Under the pieces are notes generated by a model that saw only the letters and a program-made list of their open reading frames with translations, did not search any database and was not told where the DNA came from. A stretch of DNA of 64,000 nt, from contig NZ_CP022098.1 of assembly GCF_002305875.1 (NCBI RefSeq), positions 3,844,001 to 3,908,000 on the forward strand. Direction: 5' to 3'. The translations under genes and the position numbers were made by a program. Position 1 is the first letter of the stretch. Every line of letters starts with the position of its first letter. Of the stretch, positions 35,386-64,000 are shown piece by piece. Source of the stretch: Cystobacter fuscus. GTDB taxonomy: Bacteria; Myxococcota; Myxococcia; Myxococcales; Myxococcaceae.

Positions 35386-36339
35386 ATGAACAACGAGACG
35401 ATCAAGCGAATCAAGCAGCGTGGACAGCTTCGCTGCGGAGTCAGCCGCGGTATCTACGGCATGTCCTATCAAGAAGGACAGAGCTGGCGGGGCTTTGATG
35501 TTGATTTCGGGCGGGCCGTGGCCGCCGCGGTCGTTGGAGATGCATCTAAAATCGAGTTCATCTCACTCAAGCCAGAGGAGCGCTTCTCCTCGCTGAGGGA
35601 TGAGACCGTCGATGTGCTCTGCTGCAACGCGACCTGCACCTTCTCTCGCGATTCGGCGCAGGGAATCACCTTCGCGGCGATGACCGTCTATGACGGGGAG
35701 ACGATGCTGGTTCACCGGGATCTCGGTGTCACCAGCGTGCGGCAACTGAAGAACCCGACGGTCGCGCTTCAATCGGGAACGACCACGGACATCAATCTGC
35801 AGCGCTTCCTGCAGCAGCATGGCATCTCCTTCACCGGGCGCTACTACTCCACGCCGCAGGAGGCGCTGGACGGCTACGCGCGGCGCGAGTGCGATGCCTA
35901 TGCCCTGGATCGCGTCCCGCTGACCGGCGAGCGCCTGCGCCTGCCCAATCCCGAGGACCACATCATCGTTCCGGAGACCTTCTCCAAGGAGCCCATGGGC
36001 CCCGCGGTGAAGGCCGGTGACGGACTCTGGGAGAAGGTGGTCCGGTGGGTCATCTACCTGACCATCGAGGCCGAGGATGTGGGCGTGTCGTCCGAGAGCA
36101 TCGACGCGCAGATCGCCGGCAAGAACCCCGACGCGCTTCACCTTCTCAAGTCCGCGGACGCGGTCAGCTCTCATCTCCAGCTGGAACCGGGCTGGGCCCA
36201 CCAGGTCATCAAGCAGGTGGGCAACTACCACGAAATCTTCGAGCGTAACCTGGGAATGAAGTCCCGTCTCAAGCTCGAGCGCGGTATGAACGCGCTGTGG
36301 TCCAAAGGTGGCATTCTCTACGCTCCCCCCTTCAAGTGA
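35386..36339 (+). CDS. AapJ-like periplasmic-binding-protein homologue without a signal peptide
   Basis: 317 residues. The sequence follows AapJ, the general L-amino-acid-binding protein, nearly to the end (LRCGVSRGIYG, GFDVDFGRAVAAAV, QSGTTTDINL, GPAVKAGDGLW, QVGNYHEIFERN, ALWSKGGILYAPP). It starts directly at the mature region, and an in-frame stop at 35371-35373 rules out a longer, exported form. A cytosolic location is therefore expected. The same fold yields enzymes such as cyclohexadienyl dehydratase PheC, so it may be an enzyme or an intracellular ligand binder. It is the first gene of the glutamate-mutase operon. Confidence 0.85.
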   Translation: MNNETIKRIKQRGQLRCGVSRGIYGMSYQEGQSWRGFDVDFGRAVAAAVVGDASKIEFISLKPEERFSSLRDETVDVLCCNATCTFSRDSAQGITFAAMTVYDGETMLVHRDLGVTSVRQLKNPTVALQSGTTTDINLQRFLQQHGISFTGRYYSTPQEALDGYARRECDAYALDRVPLTGERLRLPNPEDHIIVPETFSKEPMGPAVKAGDGLWEKVVRWVIYLTIEAEDVGVSSESIDAQIAGKNPDALHLLKSADAVSSHLQLEPGWAHQVIKQVGNYHEIFERNLGMKSRLKLERGMNALWSKGGILYAPPFK

Positions 36340-36353
36340 GTCACACACACACC

Positions 36354-37265
36354 ATGGATAATCAGCAGCAGCAGCAGCAAAACAGGACGGGCGTCATTCA
36401 GCTGGTTTCGGCCATGGTGCTCTCGGGCACCATTGGAATCTTCGTCACCGAAGCCCACATGGACGCCTTCAACGTGGTGTTCTTCCGCTGCCTGTTCGGA
36501 GCCATCTGCCTGACGATCTTCTGTCTGGCCAAGGGGTTCTTCAAGCGCTCCTTCTTCACCAAGAAGACCACCGCGCTCATCGCGCTGGGCGGTGTGTGCA
36601 TCGTCTTCAACTGGGTCTTCCTGTTCAAGTCCTACGGGCTGACCTCCATCACCATGGGGACCATCCTCTACCACACGCAGCCCTTCTACGTGGTCCTGCT
36701 CGGCGTCATCCTGTTCAAGGAGCGCATCTCGGCCAACAAGATCCTTTGGATCTGCCTGGCCTTCGTCGGCATGGTGTTCGTGACCAACCTGCAGGCCTCT
36801 GATCTCAAGTCGACCTACATCGAGGGCATCCTGTACTCGCTGGCGGCCGCGGTCCTCTACGGCATCGCCACCATCGTGGCCAAGCGGCTCAAGGGCATTC
36901 CTCCCCACCTGATCGCGCTGTGCCAGATCACCCTGGGCATGTTCCTGCTCTACCCGTTCACCACGCTGCAGAACGTCCCGACCGTGGGCACGCACTGGTA
37001 CTACCTGGCCGGCCTGGGTCTGATCCACACCTGCATCATGTACATCCTGATGTACTCCTCCTACCAGAAGCTGGACACGACGAAGATCGCCGTCCTGTCC
37101 TTCATCTACCCCGCAGTGGCGCTGATCATCGACTTCGCCGTCTACGGAACCCGGCTCGCGCCGTTCCAGGGCTTGGGCGTGGTCCTGATCTTCCTGAGCA
37201 GCATCGCGGTCAACCGCAACTGGAACTTCGCCTTCATCGGTCCCAAGAAAGAGGCCCTGTCATGA
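36354..37265 (+). CDS. EamA/DMT-family transporter, probable exporter
   Basis: 303 residues from the ATG at 36354. After a Gln-rich start there are about ten transmembrane helices in two EamA halves, with the family features FFRCLFGAICL, TSITMGTILYHTQPFYVVLLG and ERISANKILW. Such carriers usually export amino acids or related metabolites. Its position inside the biosynthetic operon, coupled by ATGA to the glutamate-mutase small subunit, suggests export of the product. Confidence 0.9.
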   Translation: MDNQQQQQQNRTGVIQLVSAMVLSGTIGIFVTEAHMDAFNVVFFRCLFGAICLTIFCLAKGFFKRSFFTKKTTALIALGGVCIVFNWVFLFKSYGLTSITMGTILYHTQPFYVVLLGVILFKERISANKILWICLAFVGMVFVTNLQASDLKSTYIEGILYSLAAAVLYGIATIVAKRLKGIPPHLIALCQITLGMFLLYPFTTLQNVPTVGTHWYYLAGLGLIHTCIMYILMYSSYQKLDTTKIAVLSFIYPAVALIIDFAVYGTRLAPFQGLGVVLIFLSSIAVNRNWNFAFIGPKKEALS

Positions 37266-37789
37266 GCAACGAGATCTCGCATCTCCAGCCGAGAGGTTCT
37301 CGCGTTCCCGCGCCCAACTCCGCGAAGACGGACTCCTCGCGGGGCACGGTGATCCTCGGAGTGGCCGCGAGCGACACCCATGTGGTGGCCAACCACCTGA
37401 TCGCCCACATGCTGCGCGAGAATGGCTACACGGTGGTCAACCTCGGCGCGTGCACCCCCCTGCGCGACTTCATGGATGCCTACGCGAGCAATGAGAATGT
37501 GATCGCCATCGTCATCGGCAGCCTCAATGGGCACGCCAAGGATGACCTGCGGGGCCTGTTGGAGCTGAAGCAGGAGTACGGCGTGCGCTGCCCGGTGGTG
37601 CTCGGCGGCAACCTCTCGGTCGGCAGCCAGAAGGAGCTGGGCCTGGAGGAGTACTTCATGAAGCTGGGCGTGGACATCGTGCAGAACAGGCCGGAGCTGC
37701 TGGCCAAGCAGCTGCACCTCCTGTCGTCCGCCAATTCCAACAATACGAACAACGCCATGGCCGAGATGCGCCAGGCCTCCGGAATCTAG
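37262..37789 (+). CDS. glutamate mutase small (B12-binding, sigma) subunit
   Basis: 175 residues. The first 28 are a polar extension. The cobalamin-binding fold follows: [15 protein letters not shown], with Asp38 and the expected cobalt ligand His40, then [13 protein letters not shown] and [11 protein letters not shown]. The family motif is usually DxHxxG; here it reads DxHxxA, a departure worth noting. With the large subunit at 40198 it should interconvert L-glutamate and (2S,3S)-3-methylaspartate using adenosylcobalamin. It overlaps the transporter gene and lies 14 bases before the semialdehyde dehydrogenase. Confidence 0.88.
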
Positions 37790-37803
37790 GGAGAAATCCG
37801 ACA

Positions 37804-38859
37804 ATGACGCAGAAGACGCAGCCTGTTGTGGCCATCGTGGGCGCCACTGGAGCCGTGGGTACGACCTTCCTCGAGCTGTTCGAGGAGCGCTCCTTCCAGT
37901 TCAAGGAGCTGCACCTGGTGGCCTCGCCGCGCTCGGCGGGAAAGACGATCCAGTTCCGGGGCAAGTCGTACGAGATCAAGGACCTGGAGACCTTCGACTT
38001 CACCGGCATCGACATCGCCTTCTTCTCCGCGGGCACCTCCATCAGCAAGAAGTCCGCCCGCCGCGCGGCGCAGCAGGGCGCGCTGGTCATCGACAACACC
38101 AACGCCTTCCGCATGGACGCGGACACGCCGCTGGTGGTGCCGCAGGTGAACCGGCACCAGCTGAACTCCTGGCCCACCTCGGGCATCTACGCCAACCCCA
38201 ACTGCGCCACCATCCCGGTGGTGCGCGCCCTCAAGCCGTTGGATCCGGTGTTCGGCGTCAAGAAGGTCATCATCAGCACCTACCAGGCCGCTTCGGGCCA
38301 GGGCCTCACGGGCATCGAGGAGCTGCGCGAGGGGACGCGCCAGCTGATGGCCGACGAGAAGAGCGTGCTCAAGGCTCAGCGCTTCCAGGTGCCGCTCGCC
38401 TTCAACCTCGTTCCCAACATCGACGCCATGCAGGAGACGGGCTTCACCCTGGAAGAGCAGAAGATGATCCAGGAGTCCCGGAAGATCATGGAGCGCCCGG
38501 ACCTGTACGTGAGCAGCACCGCGGTGCGCGTCCCGGTCATCAACTGCCACTCCGAGGCCGTCTACTTCGAGTGCGAGCGGCCGCTGGAGCTGCAGCGCAT
38601 GCTCGAGCTGCTGCGCGGCGGGGAAGAGCTGCAGGTCTATTACGGCCCTGGCGCGGAGAACTATCCGACGCCGCGCACGGTCCGTAACCAGAACGACGTG
38701 CACGTGGGCCGCATCCGCGTGGACGCGACCAACAAGAACGCCGGCTGGCTGTGGGTCGTCTCCGACAACCTGCGCGTGGGCGCGGCGTTGAACGCGCTCC
38801 AGATCGCCGAGGAAGTCATCGCCAACGGTCTGCTGGCCCGCAAGCCGCTCGCCGCCTAG
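37804..38859 (+). CDS. aspartate-semialdehyde dehydrogenase, pathway-dedicated copy
   Basis: 351 residues, normal length. It has the NADP-binding GATGAVG at about 14-20, the catalytic Cys in NPNCATIP, the YQAASGQG loop, and the His in [12 protein letters not shown]. The usual text around that His is GHSE, so Gly to Cys is a visible change beside the catalytic His. The enzyme reduces aspartyl-4-phosphate to the semialdehyde; here the substrate may be the 3-methyl derivative supplied by glutamate mutase. 225 bases separate it from the next gene, with a GC-rich hairpin-like stretch but no other gene. Confidence 0.9.
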
Positions 38860-39084
38860 AGCACCCGGAGCGGGTCCGGAGCGAGCACTCCCCAGGGAGT
38901 GCCGCCTGGACTCCGCCTCGGCAAGTGTTGAACCCCCCTTCCAGCGGCGAAACAGTCCCCCAGGCGAGGCTCCTCCCGAAAGAGGCCTCGTCCACGGGAG
39001 ACGTCCGCCCGGCCCTCCAGGTCGGGCCCGCCGCGGGTGCAGTAGAGCGTCAAGGAATCGTCCAGGGAGAGAGCAGGAAACACC

Positions 39085-40170
39085 ATGCGGATTCAGGTCA
39101 TGAAGTTCGGAGGCTCGTCCTTCGCCAGTGATGAGCACTTCCATCGCGTCGCCAGCTACATCCAGGGGCGGGTCGCCGAGGGAAACAAGGTCGCCCTGGT
39201 CGTCAGCGGACTGCCTGGCGCCACCGAGGCCCTGCGCGCCAAGTGTCTGTCCATCAATCCCGAGCCCTCGGGCGAGACGATTGACTGCCTCATTCCGTTG
39301 GCGGACACGATCGGTGCGGCCTACTGCCGGGCGGCGCTCGAGCGCCAGCGCGTCAAGGTGACCACCCTCTATTTCTCCCAGCTCGGCCTCCTGACGGACT
39401 CGAACTACTCGCGCGCCCGGATCCAGGAGTTCGATCCCACCCCGCTGCGCACCGCGCTGGAGACCCACGACGTGGTCGTGGTGCCCGGGGGACAGGCCCG
39501 CAACGCCCAGGGCCAGCAGATGTGGATGGGCAAGAACAGCTCCGATCTGTCCGCCGTCGCCGTGGCGGCCGCGCTCGGCGTCAAGGATTGCGAAATCTAC
39601 TCCGACGTCTGCGGCGTCTACTCGTCGGACCCCAACCAGATCTCCGGCACCCAACTGGTTCCGGAGATCTCCTACGACGCCGCCATCGACATGTCGCTGA
39701 GCGGCGCGAAGGTCATCCATCACGGCTCGGTCCGCTATGCCAAGCGCCACGGTGTGGAGATCGTCTGCCGCCTGAACCAGGATGACTTCCGGGTGGGCAC
39801 GCGCATCGGGCAGAAGGGCGCCCCGGCCGTCCTCGTGCTGGATCAGCGCTCGGTCGTCCTGGAGTTCGCCGCCCAGGCCGAGCAGGAGCGCGCCGTGGCG
39901 GCACTGAGCGCCATCGAGGTGCCGTTCGTCGACATGGCGCGCCCGGGCGAGTCGCGGCTGGCGGTCACTTGCGGCTTCTTCGACGTGGAGCGGTTCCTCC
40001 GGGAGAACAATCTCCAGCCCCGGACGCTGGATCGCTACCTGGCTTCCGAGTTCCGGCGGGATGGGAGTGTGTCCCGCCACCTGCCCGAGAAGAGCACGGC
40101 GCAGGCGTTCTCCCAGCAACTGCACGACCAGCTCTACTCCCAGCGCGGTCAGATCGGAAGCGCCGCCTAG
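39085..40170 (+). CDS. aspartokinase, short form with reduced regulatory region
   Basis: 361 residues, about 50-100 shorter than standard aspartokinases. The kinase domain has KFGGSS at residues 8-13, VVSGLPGATE, the GKNSSDLSAVAVAAAL loop, and the SDVCGVYSSDPNQ segment. Some consensus positions are changed (SAMG-type motif to SGLPG, GRGGSD to GKNSSD). After about residue 250, where two ACT domains normally give lysine/threonine feedback, only about 110 divergent residues remain. This suggests a feedback-insensitive enzyme dedicated to the operon, possibly acting on 3-methylaspartate. Confidence 0.88.
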   Translation: MRIQVMKFGGSSFASDEHFHRVASYIQGRVAEGNKVALVVSGLPGATEALRAKCLSINPEPSGETIDCLIPLADTIGAAYCRAALERQRVKVTTLYFSQLGLLTDSNYSRARIQEFDPTPLRTALETHDVVVVPGGQARNAQGQQMWMGKNSSDLSAVAVAAALGVKDCEIYSDVCGVYSSDPNQISGTQLVPEISYDAAIDMSLSGAKVIHHGSVRYAKRHGVEIVCRLNQDDFRVGTRIGQKGAPAVLVLDQRSVVLEFAAQAEQERAVAALSAIEVPFVDMARPGESRLAVTCGFFDVERFLRENNLQPRTLDRYLASEFRRDGSVSRHLPEKSTAQAFSQQLHDQLYSQRGQIGSAA

Positions 40171-40197
40171 GCGCCGTCTCCCAAGGGGAGCCCCACC

Positions 40198-41577
<1,380 letters not shown>

Positions 41578-41641
41578 GTCCCCATCCGCCGTACACCGTT
41601 TCCTCATCACATCGATCTCGCATCAAAGAAGGAGAATGCCC

Positions 41642-42628
41642 ATGAAGCCTCTGGCTCTGGAAGACACCCTGTCGAAGAACATTGGCGCGAAGCTGCAGGC
41701 CATCACCTCTCCGTACGAGAAGTTCGAGGACTCGCTCGTCCAGGTGTACAAGATCTTCGCGGAGCTCCCCGCGAACGTCATCAAGGACATCATGTCCTTC
41801 GGGCGTTTCCCCGAGAGCCCCGGGGTGATGCTGCTGGAGAACATGCCGCTGGACCCGGTGCTCCCCCCGACGCCCAAGGACGGCAAGCCCGTGACGGCGC
41901 GCAACAGCTTCGTGGGCGAGGGCATCCTGCTCGGGCTGACCCAGATGCTGGGCGAGCCGGTCGGCTTCACGTCCGAGAAGTCCGGCAACCTCATCCACTA
42001 CGTGACGCCGGTGGAGTCGGGCAGCTACACCCAGTCCAATCAGGGCTCCAAGGTCTTCCTCAACTACCACAACGACTCGGTCCACGATGAGAGCGGGTAC
42101 TACCACCGCTTCAACCCGGACTACCTGATCCTCCACTGCATCCGCGCGGACAAGGAAGGCAAGGCCTACACGTACTACGCGGATGCGCGCGACATCTGCA
42201 AGGCGCTGCCGGCGGAGACGGTGGCCCTGCTGCGCCAGCCGCTGTTCCGCATGGCCGCTCCGAGCACCTTCTCGCGCGAGCGCGCCAACGGCGCCCAGGT
42301 CTGGTCGAACCTGGTGCCCATCATCTCCGGGCCGGACGCCTTCCCCGAGATCTCCATCGCCGCCAACGGCGTCAAGGGCGAGACGCCCGAGGCCGAGAAG
42401 GCCCTCGAGCAGCTGCACGCCGCCTGCCACGACGACAAGGTCCACACCAAGGTCGCCCTGCGGCCCGGCATGACGATGCTCATCAACAACCGCAAGGGTC
42501 TGCACGCGCGCGGCGTGTTCGAGCCGGGGTTCGACGGTGAGGACCGCTGGCTGCTGCGGACCTATATCCGCCGCAACATGTGGGAGATGCGTCACCGCTC
42601 CATCGGCACCCAGCGGGTGTTCGCCTAG
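41642..42628 (+). CDS. clavaminate-synthase-like Fe(II)/2-oxoglutarate amino-acid oxygenase
   Basis: 328 residues from the ATG at 41642, which lies 7 bases after AAGGAG; the ATG at 41636 is too close. Likely iron ligands are His143 and Asp145 (NYHND) and His288 (KGLHARG), with Arg306 for 2-oxoglutarate. The overall pattern (VFLNYHNDSVHDESG, NNRKGLHARGVFEPGFDGEDRWLLRTYI) is that of the family containing VioC, AsnO and free-lysine hydroxylases, so it probably hydroxylates or desaturates an amino acid. It is the last gene of the operon, followed by a good terminator. Confidence 0.88.
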   Translation: MKPLALEDTLSKNIGAKLQAITSPYEKFEDSLVQVYKIFAELPANVIKDIMSFGRFPESPGVMLLENMPLDPVLPPTPKDGKPVTARNSFVGEGILLGLTQMLGEPVGFTSEKSGNLIHYVTPVESGSYTQSNQGSKVFLNYHNDSVHDESGYYHRFNPDYLILHCIRADKEGKAYTYYADARDICKALPAETVALLRQPLFRMAAPSTFSRERANGAQVWSNLVPIISGPDAFPEISIAANGVKGETPEAEKALEQLHAACHDDKVHTKVALRPGMTMLINNRKGLHARGVFEPGFDGEDRWLLRTYIRRNMWEMRHRSIGTQRVFA

Positions 42629-56662: not shown

Positions 56663-57907
56663 CTACGGCACGTCCTTGAGGCCCGGACGCGGCGCGCCCA
56701 CGAGGATGGCCATGTTGCCATCCGGGTGTTTGTTCTCGCTCATGAGCTGGTGCGCCTCGGGCAGGCTGCCGAAGGAGAACGTGCGGGACAGGCAGGGGGA
56801 GAGCCGTCCGTCCCGCAGCAGCTCGTTGAAGGCGGCCGCCTGGTCTCGGTTGGCGAAGTGGGAACCCTGCAAGCGCTTCTGCCTCATCCACAGGTAGCGC
56901 AGGTCCACCGTGGCGTTGTAGCCGGTGGTGCCGGCGCAGGTGACGACCATGCCTCCCGTCTGGCAGAGGAAGATGCTGGTGGGGGTGGTGCTCTCTCCGG
57001 GGTGCTCGAAGACGAGGGTGGGGTTGCGCTTCTCCCCGAGCGCGTCCCAGAAGGCCTTGCCGAAGGCCTTGGCGCCCTCCATCCACCGGTCATACGCCGC
57101 GGTGTCCGTCCAGTGCGGCAACATCCCCCAGTGATCGAAGTTCCGGCGGTTGATGGTGCCAACCGCGCCGAGCTGCTTGCAGAACCCGGCGCGCTCCTCG
57201 CTGGAGACCACGGCTACCGGCCGCGCGCCCGCGAGCACCGCGAGCTGGATGGCCATGCAACCCAGACCTCCCGCCCCTCCCCAGACGAGCACCGGCTCGC
57301 CCTTCTTCAGGGTATTGGGCGTCCAGCCGTGGAGCATCCGGTAGGCCGTGGCGCCCACGAGCGTCGGCGCCGCGGCCTCCTCCCACGTCAGGTGGGGCCA
57401 CTTGGGCAGGCATTGCAGCTCCTGCACCCGGGTGAATTGCGCGAAGGAGCCCCAGTTGGATTCGTAGCCCCAGATGTGGAACGAGGGGTGGAAGGCCGGA
57501 TCCATGCCCTCGGCGATCTCCGGGGCGTCCTCGTCCCAGCGGCCGCAGTGGACGACCACGTGGTCTCCCACCCGCACCCGGGTCACCTTCTCACCCACCG
57601 CGTAGACGATGCCGCTGGCATCCGAGCCGCCCACGTGGAAATCCGAGGGCTCCCCGTAGCGCGCGTGCAGCTTGCACGCATCCACGGGGGTGCCCTGGGC
57701 GGCCCAGACGTTGTTGTAATTGATGCCGGCGGCCATCACGAGGACGAGCACGTCCCTGGGCCCCAGCGGGGGGACCTCCAACTGCTCGAGCTGGAAGGCC
57801 GTGCGCGGCTCGCCGAGGCGTGAGGAGCGAATCACCTGGGCGAACATCCGGCGGGGCACGACCCCCAGGGGGGGCAACTCACCAATGGGAAAGCAGTCTG
57901 GGCGCAT
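56663..57907 (-). CDS. crotonyl-CoA carboxylase/reductase
   Basis: 414 residues of the medium-chain dehydrogenase family. [14 protein letters not shown] holds the CO2-binding Asn, [15 protein letters not shown] the aromatic-Glu pair, and [16 protein letters not shown] the His. NADPH binding uses [12 protein letters not shown]. These are the four CO2-pocket positions described for CCR. It makes ethylmalonyl-CoA or related extender units for the ethylmalonyl-CoA pathway or polyketides. It stands alone, with no mutase or epimerase nearby. An internal ATG at codon 21 is a possible alternative start. Confidence 0.93.
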
Positions 57908-60398: not shown

Positions 60399-60809
60399 TC
60401 AGCCCCCGAGGGCGTCCTCGACGCGAGGAATGTGCTCGCGCACGAGCCGCCAGCCCTCATCGAGTGAGCTGGTGCGCGCGGTGATCAACATGATCGCGGC
60501 CCGCCCCTTGGAGAGCACGCTCGCGAAGTGCAGGTTGTTGCGGGAGATGATCTGCACTTCCTCGAAGTAGTGCTCGCCGTTCTCCGGGATGCCACGCTGG
60601 ATGCGCACCAGTTGCTCGACCTGGGTGACGGTCGGACCCCTGAACATCTGCGCGAGTCCGATGACCACGGACGAGTGCAGGGTGCTTTTTCCGGTGACCT
60701 TGTTGTGGACCCCGATGAGCTCGGTGGTCCGGAGGTCGACGACGGCACAGGCGAGCCCGCCCTCCAACCCCTCGACGATCTCACGACAGATGGTTCTCAC
60801 GGCTTCCAT
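60399..60809 (-). CDS. roadblock/LC7-like small protein
   Basis: 136 residues. The fold pattern ICREIVEGLEGGLACAVVDLRTTELIGVHN followed by HSSVVIGLAQMF and IISRNNLHFASVLSKGRAAIMLIT resembles roadblock/LC7 proteins, the class of MglB that regulates small Ras-like GTPases. It starts 12 bases after the second oxygenase gene and is the last gene of the leftward ScoE-ScoD-like operon. A link between a GTPase regulator-like protein and a biosynthetic operon is unexpected. Confidence 0.75.
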   Translation of the reverse strand: MEAVRTICREIVEGLEGGLACAVVDLRTTELIGVHNKVTGKSTLHSSVVIGLAQMFRGPTVTQVEQLVRIQRGIPENGEHYFEEVQIISRNNLHFASVLSKGRAAIMLITARTSSLDEGWRLVREHIPRVEDALGG

Positions 60810-60821
60810 GTGCGGTCCTGA

Positions 60822-61802
60822 CTACGCCTTCGCGGAGGCGTGACGGGGTGAGCGGAACGCCGCGAGGATCTTCCGCCGGCCAGCGAAGGGCTTCCGGCCA
60901 TGCGACGCGAGCATGTTGTCGAAGTAGAGGATGTCACTCTTCTTCCACTCGATGGAGATCTCCTCTTCCTCGTACAGCGCGAGGATGTCCGCGACGACCG
61001 AGTCCTCGATGGGGGTGCCATCACCGTAGAGGGAGTTCTGCCAGGCCTCGCCCTGGGCGGCGCTCGACATCGGGCCGCCGAAAGAGCCGAGGAGCTTCGA
61101 CCAGTAGGTGTAGTGCCACAGGGCCAGGGTGTTGAAGAAGATGGGCGTGCCCGTCGTGGGGTGCTCGCGCACGGCCGGGGCCCTCTGGGTGAGCGTCAGC
61201 CGCTCTCCATTCCACTCAGCCTGGACGCCGTTGCCCCGGCAGAACTCGGTGATCCACTGCTTGTCCGTGGTCCCGAACGTCTCCTGGATGGAGCGGTAGG
61301 GCGTATCCTGCGTGTAATTGCGCACATACTTGAGCCCGAGTGAGAGGAACTTGTCGAGCACCGTCCGGGGCAGACGCCGGTAGAGCTGGTGCGCGTCGCA
61401 CAGGGTGGTCGCCCCCCCTTCCTCTGGCGGCTCCTCGCAGAAGAACAGGATCTGCATCGGCCAGTAGGCGTTGTAGGCCATCTCATGGTGCTGGGCGAGG
61501 CTGTGCTTGGGCGGCAGCTCCGTCGAGTTGTAGACCTCGGGCGCGACGAGCGTTCGCGGCCCGATGCCTCCCCGGTAGTCGATGGACTCGGGCTCGAGCG
61601 CCTTCGCGGTAGCCGAGAAGCCGTTGCGGTCGCAGTCGAAGCCCCGCAGGATGACGCCACGGTGGCGGAGGATGGCGGCTTTCAGGAACGCCTTGTTCTC
61701 CTCGGCCCATTGCGCCGCCGACATGCCCTCCCGCCTGGCCTCGATGCGCAGCAGGAAGTCGGTTTCGGGGTAGAGAATGTCTGTCTTGATGATGTCATTC
61801 AT
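60822..61802 (-). CDS. TauD/SyrP-like Fe(II)/2-oxoglutarate oxygenase
   Basis: 326 residues from the ATG at 61802. Iron ligands are likely His105 and Glu107 (AQHHEMAYN) and His301 (MLASHGRKPF), with Arg309 or Arg310 for 2-oxoglutarate. VILRGFD and the GGATTLCDAHQLYRRL segment fit the TauD/TfdA group that includes SyrP-like amino-acid beta-hydroxylases of NRPS clusters. It is third in the leftward operon, 33 bases after the ScoD-like gene. It may tailor the substrate or product of the ScoE-like enzyme. Confidence 0.88.
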   Translation of the reverse strand: MNDIIKTDILYPETDFLLRIEARREGMSAAQWAEENKAFLKAAILRHRGVILRGFDCDRNGFSATAKALEPESIDYRGGIGPRTLVAPEVYNSTELPPKHSLAQHHEMAYNAYWPMQILFFCEEPPEEGGATTLCDAHQLYRRLPRTVLDKFLSLGLKYVRNYTQDTPYRSIQETFGTTDKQWITEFCRGNGVQAEWNGERLTLTQRAPAVREHPTTGTPIFFNTLALWHYTYWSKLLGSFGGPMSSAAQGEAWQNSLYGDGTPIEDSVVADILALYEEEEISIEWKKSDILYFDNMLASHGRKPFAGRRKILAAFRSPRHASAKA

Positions 61803-61835
61803 GATGTATGGCTCCAATGATGTCTTTGATGGGAC

Positions 61836-62381
61836 TCAGGTGACGGCGAACAGCACCTTGCCCTCGGCCTGACCGTTGGCACCGTCCGAGAACCGGAAGG
61901 ACATGGACAGCATCAGCAGGTCCGCGCGCTTGCGCGTGACCTCGGTCCACTCGATGGTGCCCTGGAAGCCGCGAGGATCGATGGCCCTGCGGAAGGACGT
62001 CTGCAGGGAGAGGATCCACATGTTCGGCAACTGCTTCTCGCGGAAGGCCCGCAGGTCGAACGGACCGACGGTGGCGGCGAACGGATGCGTCTTCGCCTCC
62101 ACCAGGGACCACGCGAACATCAGATAGCCCAACTGGTTGACGCAGATGTTGGCCTCGACCGCGTTGAAGTGCCCGGTCGAGTCGATGTAGCAGGACGACG
62201 GAATCACGAAATCCCCTCGCAGCGCCAACGTCGTGTCGGACGCCGCGGGGACCACGTTGGCGTGCTTCATGTACCGGCACGGGGGCAGATAGGGCGCGAG
62301 CACGAGCTCCAGCAGCTCCCGCGGGACCGGCCGCGCGGGGGGAACCAGGAGGGGCGTGGACTCGATCAGCGATGCATCCAT
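61836..62381 (-). CDS. ScoD/FcoT-like hot-dog-fold thioesterase-family protein
   Basis: 181 residues. The central STGHFNAVEANICVNQLGYLMF (STGHFNAVE at 68-76) and the N-terminal LLELVLAPYLPPCRYMK match FcoT (Rv0098) and ScoD as I remember them. In isonitrile lipopeptide pathways, ScoD-type proteins add glycine to an alpha,beta-unsaturated acyl-ACP. The start lies 6 bases after the ScoE-like stop, so the two are surely co-transcribed. Assignment rests on remembered family sequences. Confidence 0.8.
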   Translation of the reverse strand: MDASLIESTPLLVPPARPVPRELLELVLAPYLPPCRYMKHANVVPAASDTTLALRGDFVIPSSCYIDSTGHFNAVEANICVNQLGYLMFAWSLVEAKTHPFAATVGPFDLRAFREKQLPNMWILSLQTSFRRAIDPRGFQGTIEWTEVTRKRADLLMLSMSFRFSDGANGQAEGKVLFAVT

Positions 62382-62387
62382 GGGGAA

Positions 62388-63254
62388 TCAATCCTTGGGG
62401 GAGTAGAAGGGGTGACCGTCGTAGAGACCAATCCGGTAGATCATCTGCGCTTCGTGCCGCGGGCTCGCGCCAGAGCGGTGGAGCAGGGTGCGATTGTCCC
62501 AGACGAGGATGTCGCCCTCTTCCCACTCATGCGTGATGACGTGCTCGGGCCTGGCGATGAAGGCGAAGACGTCCGCGAGCAGCGCCGAACTCTCGTCCGC
62601 CGCATAGCCATCGATGCGCTGGGTGAACCCCTCGTTGACGTAGAGCGACCGCTCCTGGGTGAGGGGATGCTGGATGATGCTGGGATGGCGAACGGGCGGT
62701 GCGAGTCTGGCTTCGGCCTCGATGAGCTCATGGAGGGGCTTGCCGATGTCCTCCTCCCGGACCTTGTAGCGCCCGTTGCCGCCGTGCCAGGCGTCACGGC
62801 CCTCGAGCCGCTGCCGAAGCCCCATGGGCAGCCGCTCCAGGACGGAGGGCATGTCGATGAACAGCGTCTCCCGGCGGCCCTCGGGAAGGATTCGCGGGTA
62901 GAGCATCGTCAATGACAGGGGCTGCTGCTGAAAGGAGCAGTCCGTGTGCCAGTAGTAGCCCGTCCTGGACACCCCCATCTTCCTGCTATTGATCGAGACA
63001 TTGGAGGAGATGAAGATCTCCGGGTGCTCGGGGTGGTGATAGTTGTCTTGCAGGTAGACCTGGGGAGTTCCGAGCTTCCGGGCGAAGTCGATGTACTCGG
63101 TGGTGGAGAGCTTCTGACCACGAAAGAGGATGAAGCGCCGCCGGTAGAGCACGTTCTCGCGGAGCTCGCGCGCCTCCTCGTTACCGAACCTTCGAACGTC
63201 CACCTTGTCAACCAGCGCGCCCACGCCGTTGATGAACCCTTCTTGTATCTTCAT
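62388..63254 (-). CDS. ScoE-like isonitrile-forming non-heme Fe(II)/2OG oxygenase homologue
   Basis: 288 residues from the ATG at 63254. It follows ScoE closely in NGVGALVDKVD, FRGQKLS, the HPEIFISSNV loop, IPEG-type RRETLFIDM, VNEGFTQRIDG and EGDILVWDNRTLLHR. Iron ligands are His103, Asp105 (YWHTDCSF) and His259; Arg274 should bind 2-oxoglutarate. Tyr67, Tyr72, Lys164 and Arg166 align with ScoE substrate residues, but the position of ScoE Tyr97 is Leu68 and the His299 position is not His. It may therefore use a related but different N-carboxymethyl amino acid or acyl substrate. Confidence 0.83.
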   Translation of the reverse strand: MKIQEGFINGVGALVDKVDVRRFGNEEARELRENVLYRRRFILFRGQKLSTTEYIDFARKLGTPQVYLQDNYHHPEHPEIFISSNVSINSRKMGVSRTGYYWHTDCSFQQQPLSLTMLYPRILPEGRRETLFIDMPSVLERLPMGLRQRLEGRDAWHGGNGRYKVREEDIGKPLHELIEAEARLAPPVRHPSIIQHPLTQERSLYVNEGFTQRIDGYAADESSALLADVFAFIARPEHVITHEWEEGDILVWDNRTLLHRSGASPRHEAQMIYRIGLYDGHPFYSPKD

Positions 63255-63367
63255 TGTCACTGCACCTCTTGCTTGATTCGGGCGGGGGTGAGCCATCCGC
63301 TGGCCCGCCAGTCCCGCCGGTACGACCGTCCCCGCACTCGGGGCGTCAGTACGGGAGGTAGATTGTC

Positions 63368-63381
63368 TTATTCTAGATTAA
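63368..63381. promoter_or_regulatory. candidate LysR-type operator
   Basis: TTATTCTAGATTAA is a near-perfect palindrome (6 of 7 pairs) with the T-N11-A pattern of LysR operators, in the AT-rich 168-base gap between the ScoE-like gene and the divergent LysR gene. Confidence 0.5.
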
Positions 63382-63422
63382 TTGGAAATAGCCGTTTATG
63401 AATTCACAGTATACATTGATGC

Positions 63423-64000
63423 ATGAAACGAAATCGCACGAAGAACACACGAAGCCCGCAGTGGGATGATCTCAAGATCTTCCTCGCCATCTCGAGAGAT
63501 GGCTCGCTGGTAGGTGCGGCGCGGGCCATGGGGCTGACGCAACCCACGATGGGCCGCCGGCTCCAGTCGCTGGAGAAGCTCGTGGGCTGCAAGTTGTTGA
63601 GGCGTACCTCCGACGGGTACGTCCTGACGGATGAGGGCATGGCGGTGTTGGCTCACGCCGAGCGCATGGAAGAGGAGGCCCTGGCCTTCGAGCGCCAGCT
63701 CGCCGCGCGTAACGGTGAACTCGAGGGGACCCTGCGTGTCTCCGCCTCGGATTGGCTCGCCAGCCGTGTCCTGGCGCCCGTCATCGCCCGGCTCCAGCAG
63801 AAGCATTCGCGCATGATGGTGGAGCTCAGTACGGATCCCCGTCTATTGCGCCTCGACCGGCGGGAAACCGACCTTGTCTTTTGCTTCAACCGTTTCGAGC
63901 AGGCCCATGTGGTGCAGAGGCAGCTCACGCACGTTCACTACGGGGTCTATGCCTCGCGCGCCTACCTGGAGCAGCGAGGGATGCCGCATCCGTCCACGGG
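63423..64000 (+). CDS. LysR-family transcriptional regulator, N-terminal part
   Basis: The gene runs off the right edge; about 192 residues are seen. The winged HTH is clear (WDDLKIFLAISRDGSLVGAARAMGLTQPTMGRRLQSLEKLVG), followed by the linker helix and the start of the effector domain (GTLRVSASDWLASRVLAPVI). It is divergent from the four-gene oxygenase operon and probably controls it in response to a pathway metabolite. Confidence 0.93.
   Translation, partial: MKRNRTKNTRSPQWDDLKIFLAISRDGSLVGAARAMGLTQPTMGRRLQSLEKLVGCKLLRRTSDGYVLTDEGMAVLAHAERMEEEALAFERQLAARNGELEGTLRVSASDWLASRVLAPVIARLQQKHSRMMVELSTDPRLLRLDRRETDLVFCFNRFEQAHVVQRQLTHVHYGVYASRAYLEQRGMPHPST

Follow-up and report, generated by a model that had tools for sequence, protein, structure and literature searches.

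Can the ScoD/ScoE chemistry that makes isonitriles operate without a carrier protein and an assembly line? The question is raised by a four-gene operon of Cystobacter fuscus, a myxobacterium of the family that also contains Hyalangium. The operon occupies positions 60399 to 63254 of a stretch of 64,000 nucleotides, here called the window, which corresponds to G000:C1:3844001-3908000 of the 12.35-Mb chromosome (NCBI RefSeq assembly GCF_002305875.1, contig NZ_CP022098.1). On the minus strand, the gene of a ScoE-like Fe(II)/2-oxoglutarate (2OG) oxidase/decarboxylase (62388..63254, 288 aa) is followed, after exactly 6 bases, by that of an FcoT/ScoD/CmiS1-like thioesterase (61836..62381, 181 aa). 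The genes of a SyrP/clavaminate-synthase-like Fe(II)/2OG oxygenase (60822..61802, 326 aa) and of a predicted Roadblock/LC7-fold protein lie downstream of this pair, and a LysR-type regulator gene diverges from it. An earlier note on this DNA, made from the bare sequence, had described this arrangement, and all of it holds at these coordinates. With a confidence slightly above even, we read the operon as a ScoD/ScoE isonitrile route in compact form that does without a carrier.

The ScoE-like protein is a member of the ScoE clade. Its match to NF049937 (ScoE) has an E-value of 3.3e-72, versus 4.1e-41 for taurine dioxygenase, and the best solved structures are ScoE (6dch, phmmer E 1.2e-56) and SfaA, with E-values of about 1e-56. 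In the tree, its neighbours are ScoE proteins of Hyalangium, cyanobacteria, Planctomycetota and Actinomycetota, and the TauD paralogs of its own genome are distant. The iron ligands of ScoE and the contacts that Y96, K193 and R310 make with N-carboxymethyl-3-aminobutyrate have been defined (PMC7949033). By alignment, the window protein keeps all three iron ligands (H132, D134, H295), the three substrate contacts, an equivalent of Y101, and R157 of the 2OG site; the same-genome TauD paralogs lack Y96, R157 and K193. The tree and the residue alignment thus reject an ordinary TauD origin and bear out the ScoE-like identity proposed earlier. Relative to ScoE, Y97 is changed to Leu, Y135 to Cys and H299 to Ala.

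The thioesterase falls within the FcoT family, as the earlier note had supposed. It scores 134.7 bits against PF10862 (E 2.7e-39), for which the cut-off is 27, and also matches NF049938 (ScoD; E 8.1e-37) and the SAV606-type chain 5wsy (E 1.9e-28). The protein keeps every invariant position of the Y-GH-N-E-NQ-Y motif (Y66, G71, H72, N74, E77, N83, Q84 and Y87; Mycobacterium tuberculosis FcoT positions Y66/N83/Y87), which is conserved in 85/85 sequences. The CmiS1-type FcoT enzyme catalyzes the Michael addition of glycine to an enoyl thioester, hydrolyzes the thioester and releases N-carboxymethyl-3-aminononanoic acid (PMC11284099), and ScoE binds an untethered acid as its substrate (PMC7949033). 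Because the one enzyme frees the acid and the other takes it in that form, a carrier is unnecessary beyond the FcoT step.

The third enzyme matches PF02668 (E 1e-37) and carries an HxE...H iron triad whose residues H105, E107 and H301 are invariant. The SyrP-like assignment is made through the TauD fold, the triad and the similarity to SyrP-type oxygenases linked to non-ribosomal peptide synthetase (NRPS) genes. SyrP relatives are amino-acid beta-hydroxylases. The best structural match of its model is At3g21360, followed by ScoE, SfaA, P.IsnB and PvcB; TauD scores nearly as well, and the fold therefore leaves the substrate undecided. PvcB and IsnB are Fe/2OG oxygenases acting on tyrosine isonitrile, which offers an analogy for a second oxygenase beside an isonitrile-forming one. 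Like the role proposed for the SyrP-like enzyme, they pair a TauD-fold oxygenase with isonitrile formation, but they are only ~17% identical to it. Given this low identity and the closeness of TauD, the likeness is one of analogy and not of membership.

An isonitrile lipopeptide biosynthetic cluster would be expected to carry a linked acyl-acyl carrier protein (ACP) ligase, an ACP and an NRPS or polyketide synthase (PKS). The window operon does not have them: from ~8 kb to its left to 15 kb to its right, where the genes were named from their sequences, neither ligase, ACP, NRPS nor PKS was found. Extension past the LysR gene thus upholds the absence of ligase, ACP and NRPS reported in the earlier note and adds that of PKS. 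A congener, G033, retains both flanks without the operon: positions 175-1404 and 5397-7746 of L004, the sequence extended to the right, match G033:C5, where an unrelated 1.64-kb segment lies between them. Because of this, the island gained or lost can be defined as ~4.0 kb with exactly five genes, the four of the operon and LysR. These flank matches place it at ~60405 to 64396 (no strand assigned, right end outside the window), with its left breakpoint at the roadblock stop codon and its right one just past LysR. In G033 the site holds another gene (G033:C5:324070-325707; L159:7571-9208), which encodes a 483-aa lipoprotein-like protein and of which short pieces also occur in G032; the site seems prone to gene replacement.

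If the ligase and carrier were encoded elsewhere in the genome, or the acid were passed to an unlinked NRPS or PKS, the operon would serve an ordinary isonitrile lipopeptide-like route. The genome has 21 adenylate-forming matches, several of them in long NRPS-sized frames. However, with the Hyalangium ligase as query, the best ScoC-like candidate in the window genome is only 38% identical, and those in two Pseudomonas genomes discussed below are 37% and 35% identical. Hyalangium's own unrelated paralogs reach 36-38%, whereas the ScoC-like ligases linked to FcoT loci are mostly 41-53% identical to the query. Because the best identities equal the background of unrelated paralogs, the searches offer no hint that a dedicated ligase is encoded in trans. 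The exception is the metagenome-assembled genome (MAG) DP_38, where another contig encodes a ligase with 48% identity to that of Hyalangium, which favours such a distributed arrangement. Linked ligases are the rule where ligases are present (63/80 loci), and the three enzymes sit inside an island that has neither ligase nor carrier. We therefore regard a pathway scattered over the genome as rather improbable.

Is the carrier-free trio peculiar to C. fuscus? We scanned one genome per species for 84,980 species with an alignment-based query, found 206 FcoT relatives, and fetched the best 80 together with flanks of up to 9 kb; a single FcoT protein used against genome contigs gave no match, and the alignment query succeeded. 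The loci were sorted by tblastn for ligase, PKS, NRPS and SyrP-like genes. Ligase, PKS or NRPS genes accompany FcoT in 75 of the 80: a ScoC-like ligase is present in 63, joined in 24 of them by PKS or NRPS matches, and another 12 have PKS and/or NRPS matches only. Among the remaining five, L058 is cut by a contig end, L109 has neither kind of gene, and three have a SyrP-like gene and no ligase, PKS or NRPS. These three, from Pseudomonas agarici (L032), Pseudomonas sp. dw_612 (L033) and the MAG Deltaproteobacteria bacterium DP_38 (L060), are all of the SyrP-bearing loci in the best 80, and the two Pseudomonas loci rank top in FcoT similarity to the window. The trio is intact in each. In P. agarici, FcoT-SyrP-ScoE-FMN-binding protein genes stand between housekeeping genes; the order in dw_612 is SDR (short-chain dehydrogenase/reductase)-P450-lipocalin-FcoT-SyrP-ScoE-FMN_bind_2, and that in DP_38 is SyrP-ScoE-FcoT-PhyH. 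The three loci resemble the window in having the three enzymes and no nearby carrier, ligase, PKS or NRPS, but differ in gene order and in lacking a roadblock gene. An FMN-binding PaiB-like gene closes both Pseudomonas loci; the SDR, P450 and lipocalin-like genes are extra in dw_612, as is the PhyH oxygenase in DP_38. Plasmid and viral collections yielded no further trio.

The phylogenies suggest a common history. The SyrP-like protein of the window is 49-51% identical to those of the two Pseudomonas operons. With 27 other proteins in the tree, including SyrP paralogs of the same genomes and mostly NRPS-linked plasmid ones, the window protein and its three sisters form one clade (99/96). In the FcoT tree, support is 87/93 for the four trio members together and 96/85 for the window plus the two Pseudomonas, so the FcoT proteins probably form one clade. 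The four ScoE proteins are not together in their best tree; a single clade is neither shown nor rejected (p-AU, approximately unbiased test, 0.237). From these trees, the three genes probably travelled together.

Two further loci stand apart. DP_38 has a second one (L141:9718-16410) with a type I PKS, a ferritin-like or diiron-type protein, ScoE, FcoT and SyrP-like genes in a row; its SyrP branches as a loose sister of the trio clade (88/74, unstarred), and with the PKS present the locus was left out as a fifth member. A Sporocytophaga MAG (L109:8037-11488) carries ScoE-FcoT, a leucine-carboxyl-methyltransferase-family protein and a Rieske oxygenase, with no ligase, ACP, PKS or NRPS, and is possibly a second carrier-free variant.

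The substrate, reactions, order of steps, product and regulation that we infer are as follows. The FcoT-like enzyme would join glycine through its amino group to C3 of a short alpha,beta-enoyl thioester supplied by primary metabolism (crotonyl-CoA, for instance) and would then hydrolyze the thioester to a free N-carboxymethyl-3-amino acid. In two 2OG-dependent rounds, the ScoE-like enzyme would oxidize and decarboxylate the glycyl part, giving a free 3-isocyano acid. The SyrP-like enzyme may then oxidize this small isonitrile, by hydroxylation beside the isonitrile or by desaturation with loss of CO2, as PvcB/IsnB would suggest. LysR probably controls the operon, and the roadblock protein may be a lineage-specific accessory. 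The most likely product is a small beta-isocyano acid subsequently oxidized by the SyrP-like enzyme. Our confidence falls along the pathway. That the FcoT-like enzyme makes the glycine adduct is quite probable, and that the ScoE-like enzyme makes an isonitrile is fairly likely. Action of the SyrP-like enzyme on the ScoE-like product, argued by analogy, is a tentative proposal that we place somewhat below even. The earlier note had suggested that a stand-alone set could make a simple isonitrile acid, possibly a metal chelator. The stand-alone part has gained support from the island bounds, from a genome in which no ScoC-like ligase rises above paralog level, and from the three loci with the same trio; the isonitrile acid stays a putative product. 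No metal transporter or receptor was noticed adjoining the operon or its sister loci, and nothing found here points to a chelator beyond isonitrile chemistry itself.

Several observations weigh against this reading. Both profile scores lie below the NCBI equivalog cut-offs: NF049937 gives 243 bits where 400 is required, for which reason we file the protein as a member of the ScoE clade and not as a ScoE equivalog, and NF049938 gives 126.5 bits where 250 is required. Hyalangium-genus FcoT members with fuller gene sets likewise fall under the latter cut-off (145-161 bits). H299, which belongs to the inducible 2OG site, is Ala in the window protein, and its replacement in ScoE abolishes or lowers activity (PMC7949033). 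With H299 lost, 2OG binding must differ. His at this position is nearly confined to the actinobacterial clade and is lost in nearly all non-actinobacterial homologues, ligase-bearing ones included; among homologues of Hyalangium, Planctomycetota and cyanobacteria that are accompanied by carrier, ligase, PKS or NRPS genes, most lack it too. FcoT enzymes of known pathways use ACP-bound or PKS-made substrates, and a CoA ester is assumed here. Most SyrP relatives adjoin NRPS genes. Finally, support for a trio clade in the ScoE tree is weak, and the agreement of the four loci does not amount to four independent events because they are related by descent.

The active-site changes also suit a different chemistry, in which the FcoT adduct is made and the diverged ScoE-like enzyme (Y97L, Y135C, H299A) stops short of the isonitrile. 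The glycyl carbons would be oxidatively lost to leave a beta-amino acid, an imine or an N-formyl compound, and the SyrP-like enzyme would then hydroxylate the amino acid, as its kinship with beta-hydroxylases would allow. In cremimycin biosynthesis, CmiS1/CmiS2 turn the same adduct into beta-amino acids (PMC11284099). However, the island has no CmiS2-like flavin oxidase, every substrate-binding residue and R157 are kept, and identical or similar changes are seen in homologues of cyanobacteria and Hyalangium that have the usual carrier, ligase or NRPS genes beside them. We consider this outcome unlikely, although it deserves more weight than a scattered pathway. The operon might instead be a functionless remnant of a larger isonitrile cluster, as its rare and patchy occurrence could suggest. 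FcoT is present in 5/195 genomes of the phylum and in 5/96 of the family, where the other four belong to one genus including Hyalangium versicolor; it is absent from the three congeners of C. fuscus and is found in 2/400 Pseudomonas genomes, both of them the trio loci above. Decay is very improbable, however, as the four genes are intact with a high GC3 (third-codon-position GC) coding signal, conserved active sites and tight spacing, and three further genomes have the trio undamaged.

Compared with known systems, the carrier-free isonitrile route proposed here would be a compact one. The ScoA-E, sfa and mycobacterial nrp clusters, like the window, place a ScoE-type oxidase beside an FcoT/ScoD-type enzyme, and the same glycine-adduct chemistry is expected of both. 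They have an acyl-ACP ligase, an ACP and an NRPS that the window operon lacks; in the window, the extra oxygenase beside the pair is of SyrP type and the H299 of ScoE is not kept. The SF2768 cluster of S. thioluteus has an extra tailoring hydroxylase, SfaE (PMC9600254). In cremimycin biosynthesis, the FcoT-type enzyme yields an N-carboxymethyl-3-amino acid, as expected here, but the flavin enzyme CmiS2 follows where the window has a ScoE-type oxidase. Within the same family of bacteria, the Hyalangium-genus operons (L012-L015; ScoE 46-52% and FcoT 39-41% identical to the window) carry an ACP and a ligase (in L013, no ligase in the stretch read), with a PKS and a divergent Rieske oxygenase in 3/4, and no SyrP-like gene. 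L012, L013 and L015 read ScoE-FcoT-ACP-type I PKS with the divergent Rieske oxygenase, the ligase being in L012 and L015. Hyalangium versicolor (L014/L065) has ScoE-FcoT-ACP-ligase and an acetyltransferase-like gene. L012-L015 are apparent myxobacterial isonitrile clusters.

Two island genes remain besides the trio. The LysR gene starts at 63423 on the plus strand; its first 192 aa lie in the window (63423..64000; PF00126 E 1.7e-17, PF03466 E 8.8e-28), and it is complete to 64367 beyond it (L004:4423-5367; 314 aa). The 168 bp between it and the ScoE-like gene (63255..63422) presumably hold promoter and operator; a repeat search found two imperfect palindromes there, at 63368-63381 and 63404-63419. 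A LysR paralog with 89-91% identical DNA lies on the same chromosome at G000:C1:10812103, in a context shared with G033 and with its own neighbours conserved. The island LysR looks like a recruited duplicate, and because it duplicates a genus-wide gene, an ancestral role in the module is doubtful. The terminal roadblock gene (60399..60809, minus strand, 136 aa) gave no match in a profile search. Its AlphaFold model (predicted local distance difference test, pLDDT, 80) matches roadblock 3kye (Foldseek E 4.5e-7) and MglB structures, with E-values of about 1e-6, by which the protein is predicted to have a Roadblock/LC7 fold. We rejected it as a part of the conserved module, since none of the three sister loci has it and its closest relatives (25-30%) occur at unrelated places.

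Outside the island, a crotonyl-CoA carboxylase/reductase is encoded at 56663-57907 (minus strand; TIGR01751, 555 bits, cut-off 379), ~2.5 kb past the 3' end of the operon. Since two unrelated genes intervene and it lies outside the island, we do not claim it as substrate supplier. The 15 kb after LysR encode an M20 peptidase, a PAS histidine kinase, a TerB-like protein, an amine oxidase, a sigma factor, a glycosidase and an aldo/keto reductase; these assignments come from reading the sequences and not from a profile scan. Elsewhere in the window, 35386-42628 (plus strand) may hold a small cluster for a non-proteinogenic amino acid, with genes for an amino-acid binding protein, an EamA exporter, an aspartate-semialdehyde dehydrogenase, a short aspartate-kinase-like protein, a methylaspartate mutase E-like protein and a clavaminate synthase/VioC/GntD-like oxygenase.

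ScoD/ScoE chemistry and an extra hydroxylase are known, the latter from SfaE. For a conserved carrier-free trio with a SyrP-clade oxygenase, the literature searched gave no account, either from myxobacteria or from Pseudomonas, most subscription journals lying outside the search. A bolder proposition, which we consider somewhat unlikely and less probable than the carrier-free route itself, is that the three enzymes form a self-sufficient pathway that moves between phyla and in which a free-standing SyrP-type oxygenase makes a new small isonitrile without an assembly line, for example a hydroxylated isocyano acid or, through decarboxylative desaturation, a vinyl isonitrile. The described ScoE pathways charge a carrier protein with the fatty acid and are completed by an assembly line. 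If our reading is true, the trio would show ScoD/ScoE chemistry working on thioesters of primary metabolism. It would also be a very small genetic cassette for isonitriles, consisting of three soluble enzymes, and a hint that myxobacteria and pseudomonads make a class of small isonitriles that has been overlooked.

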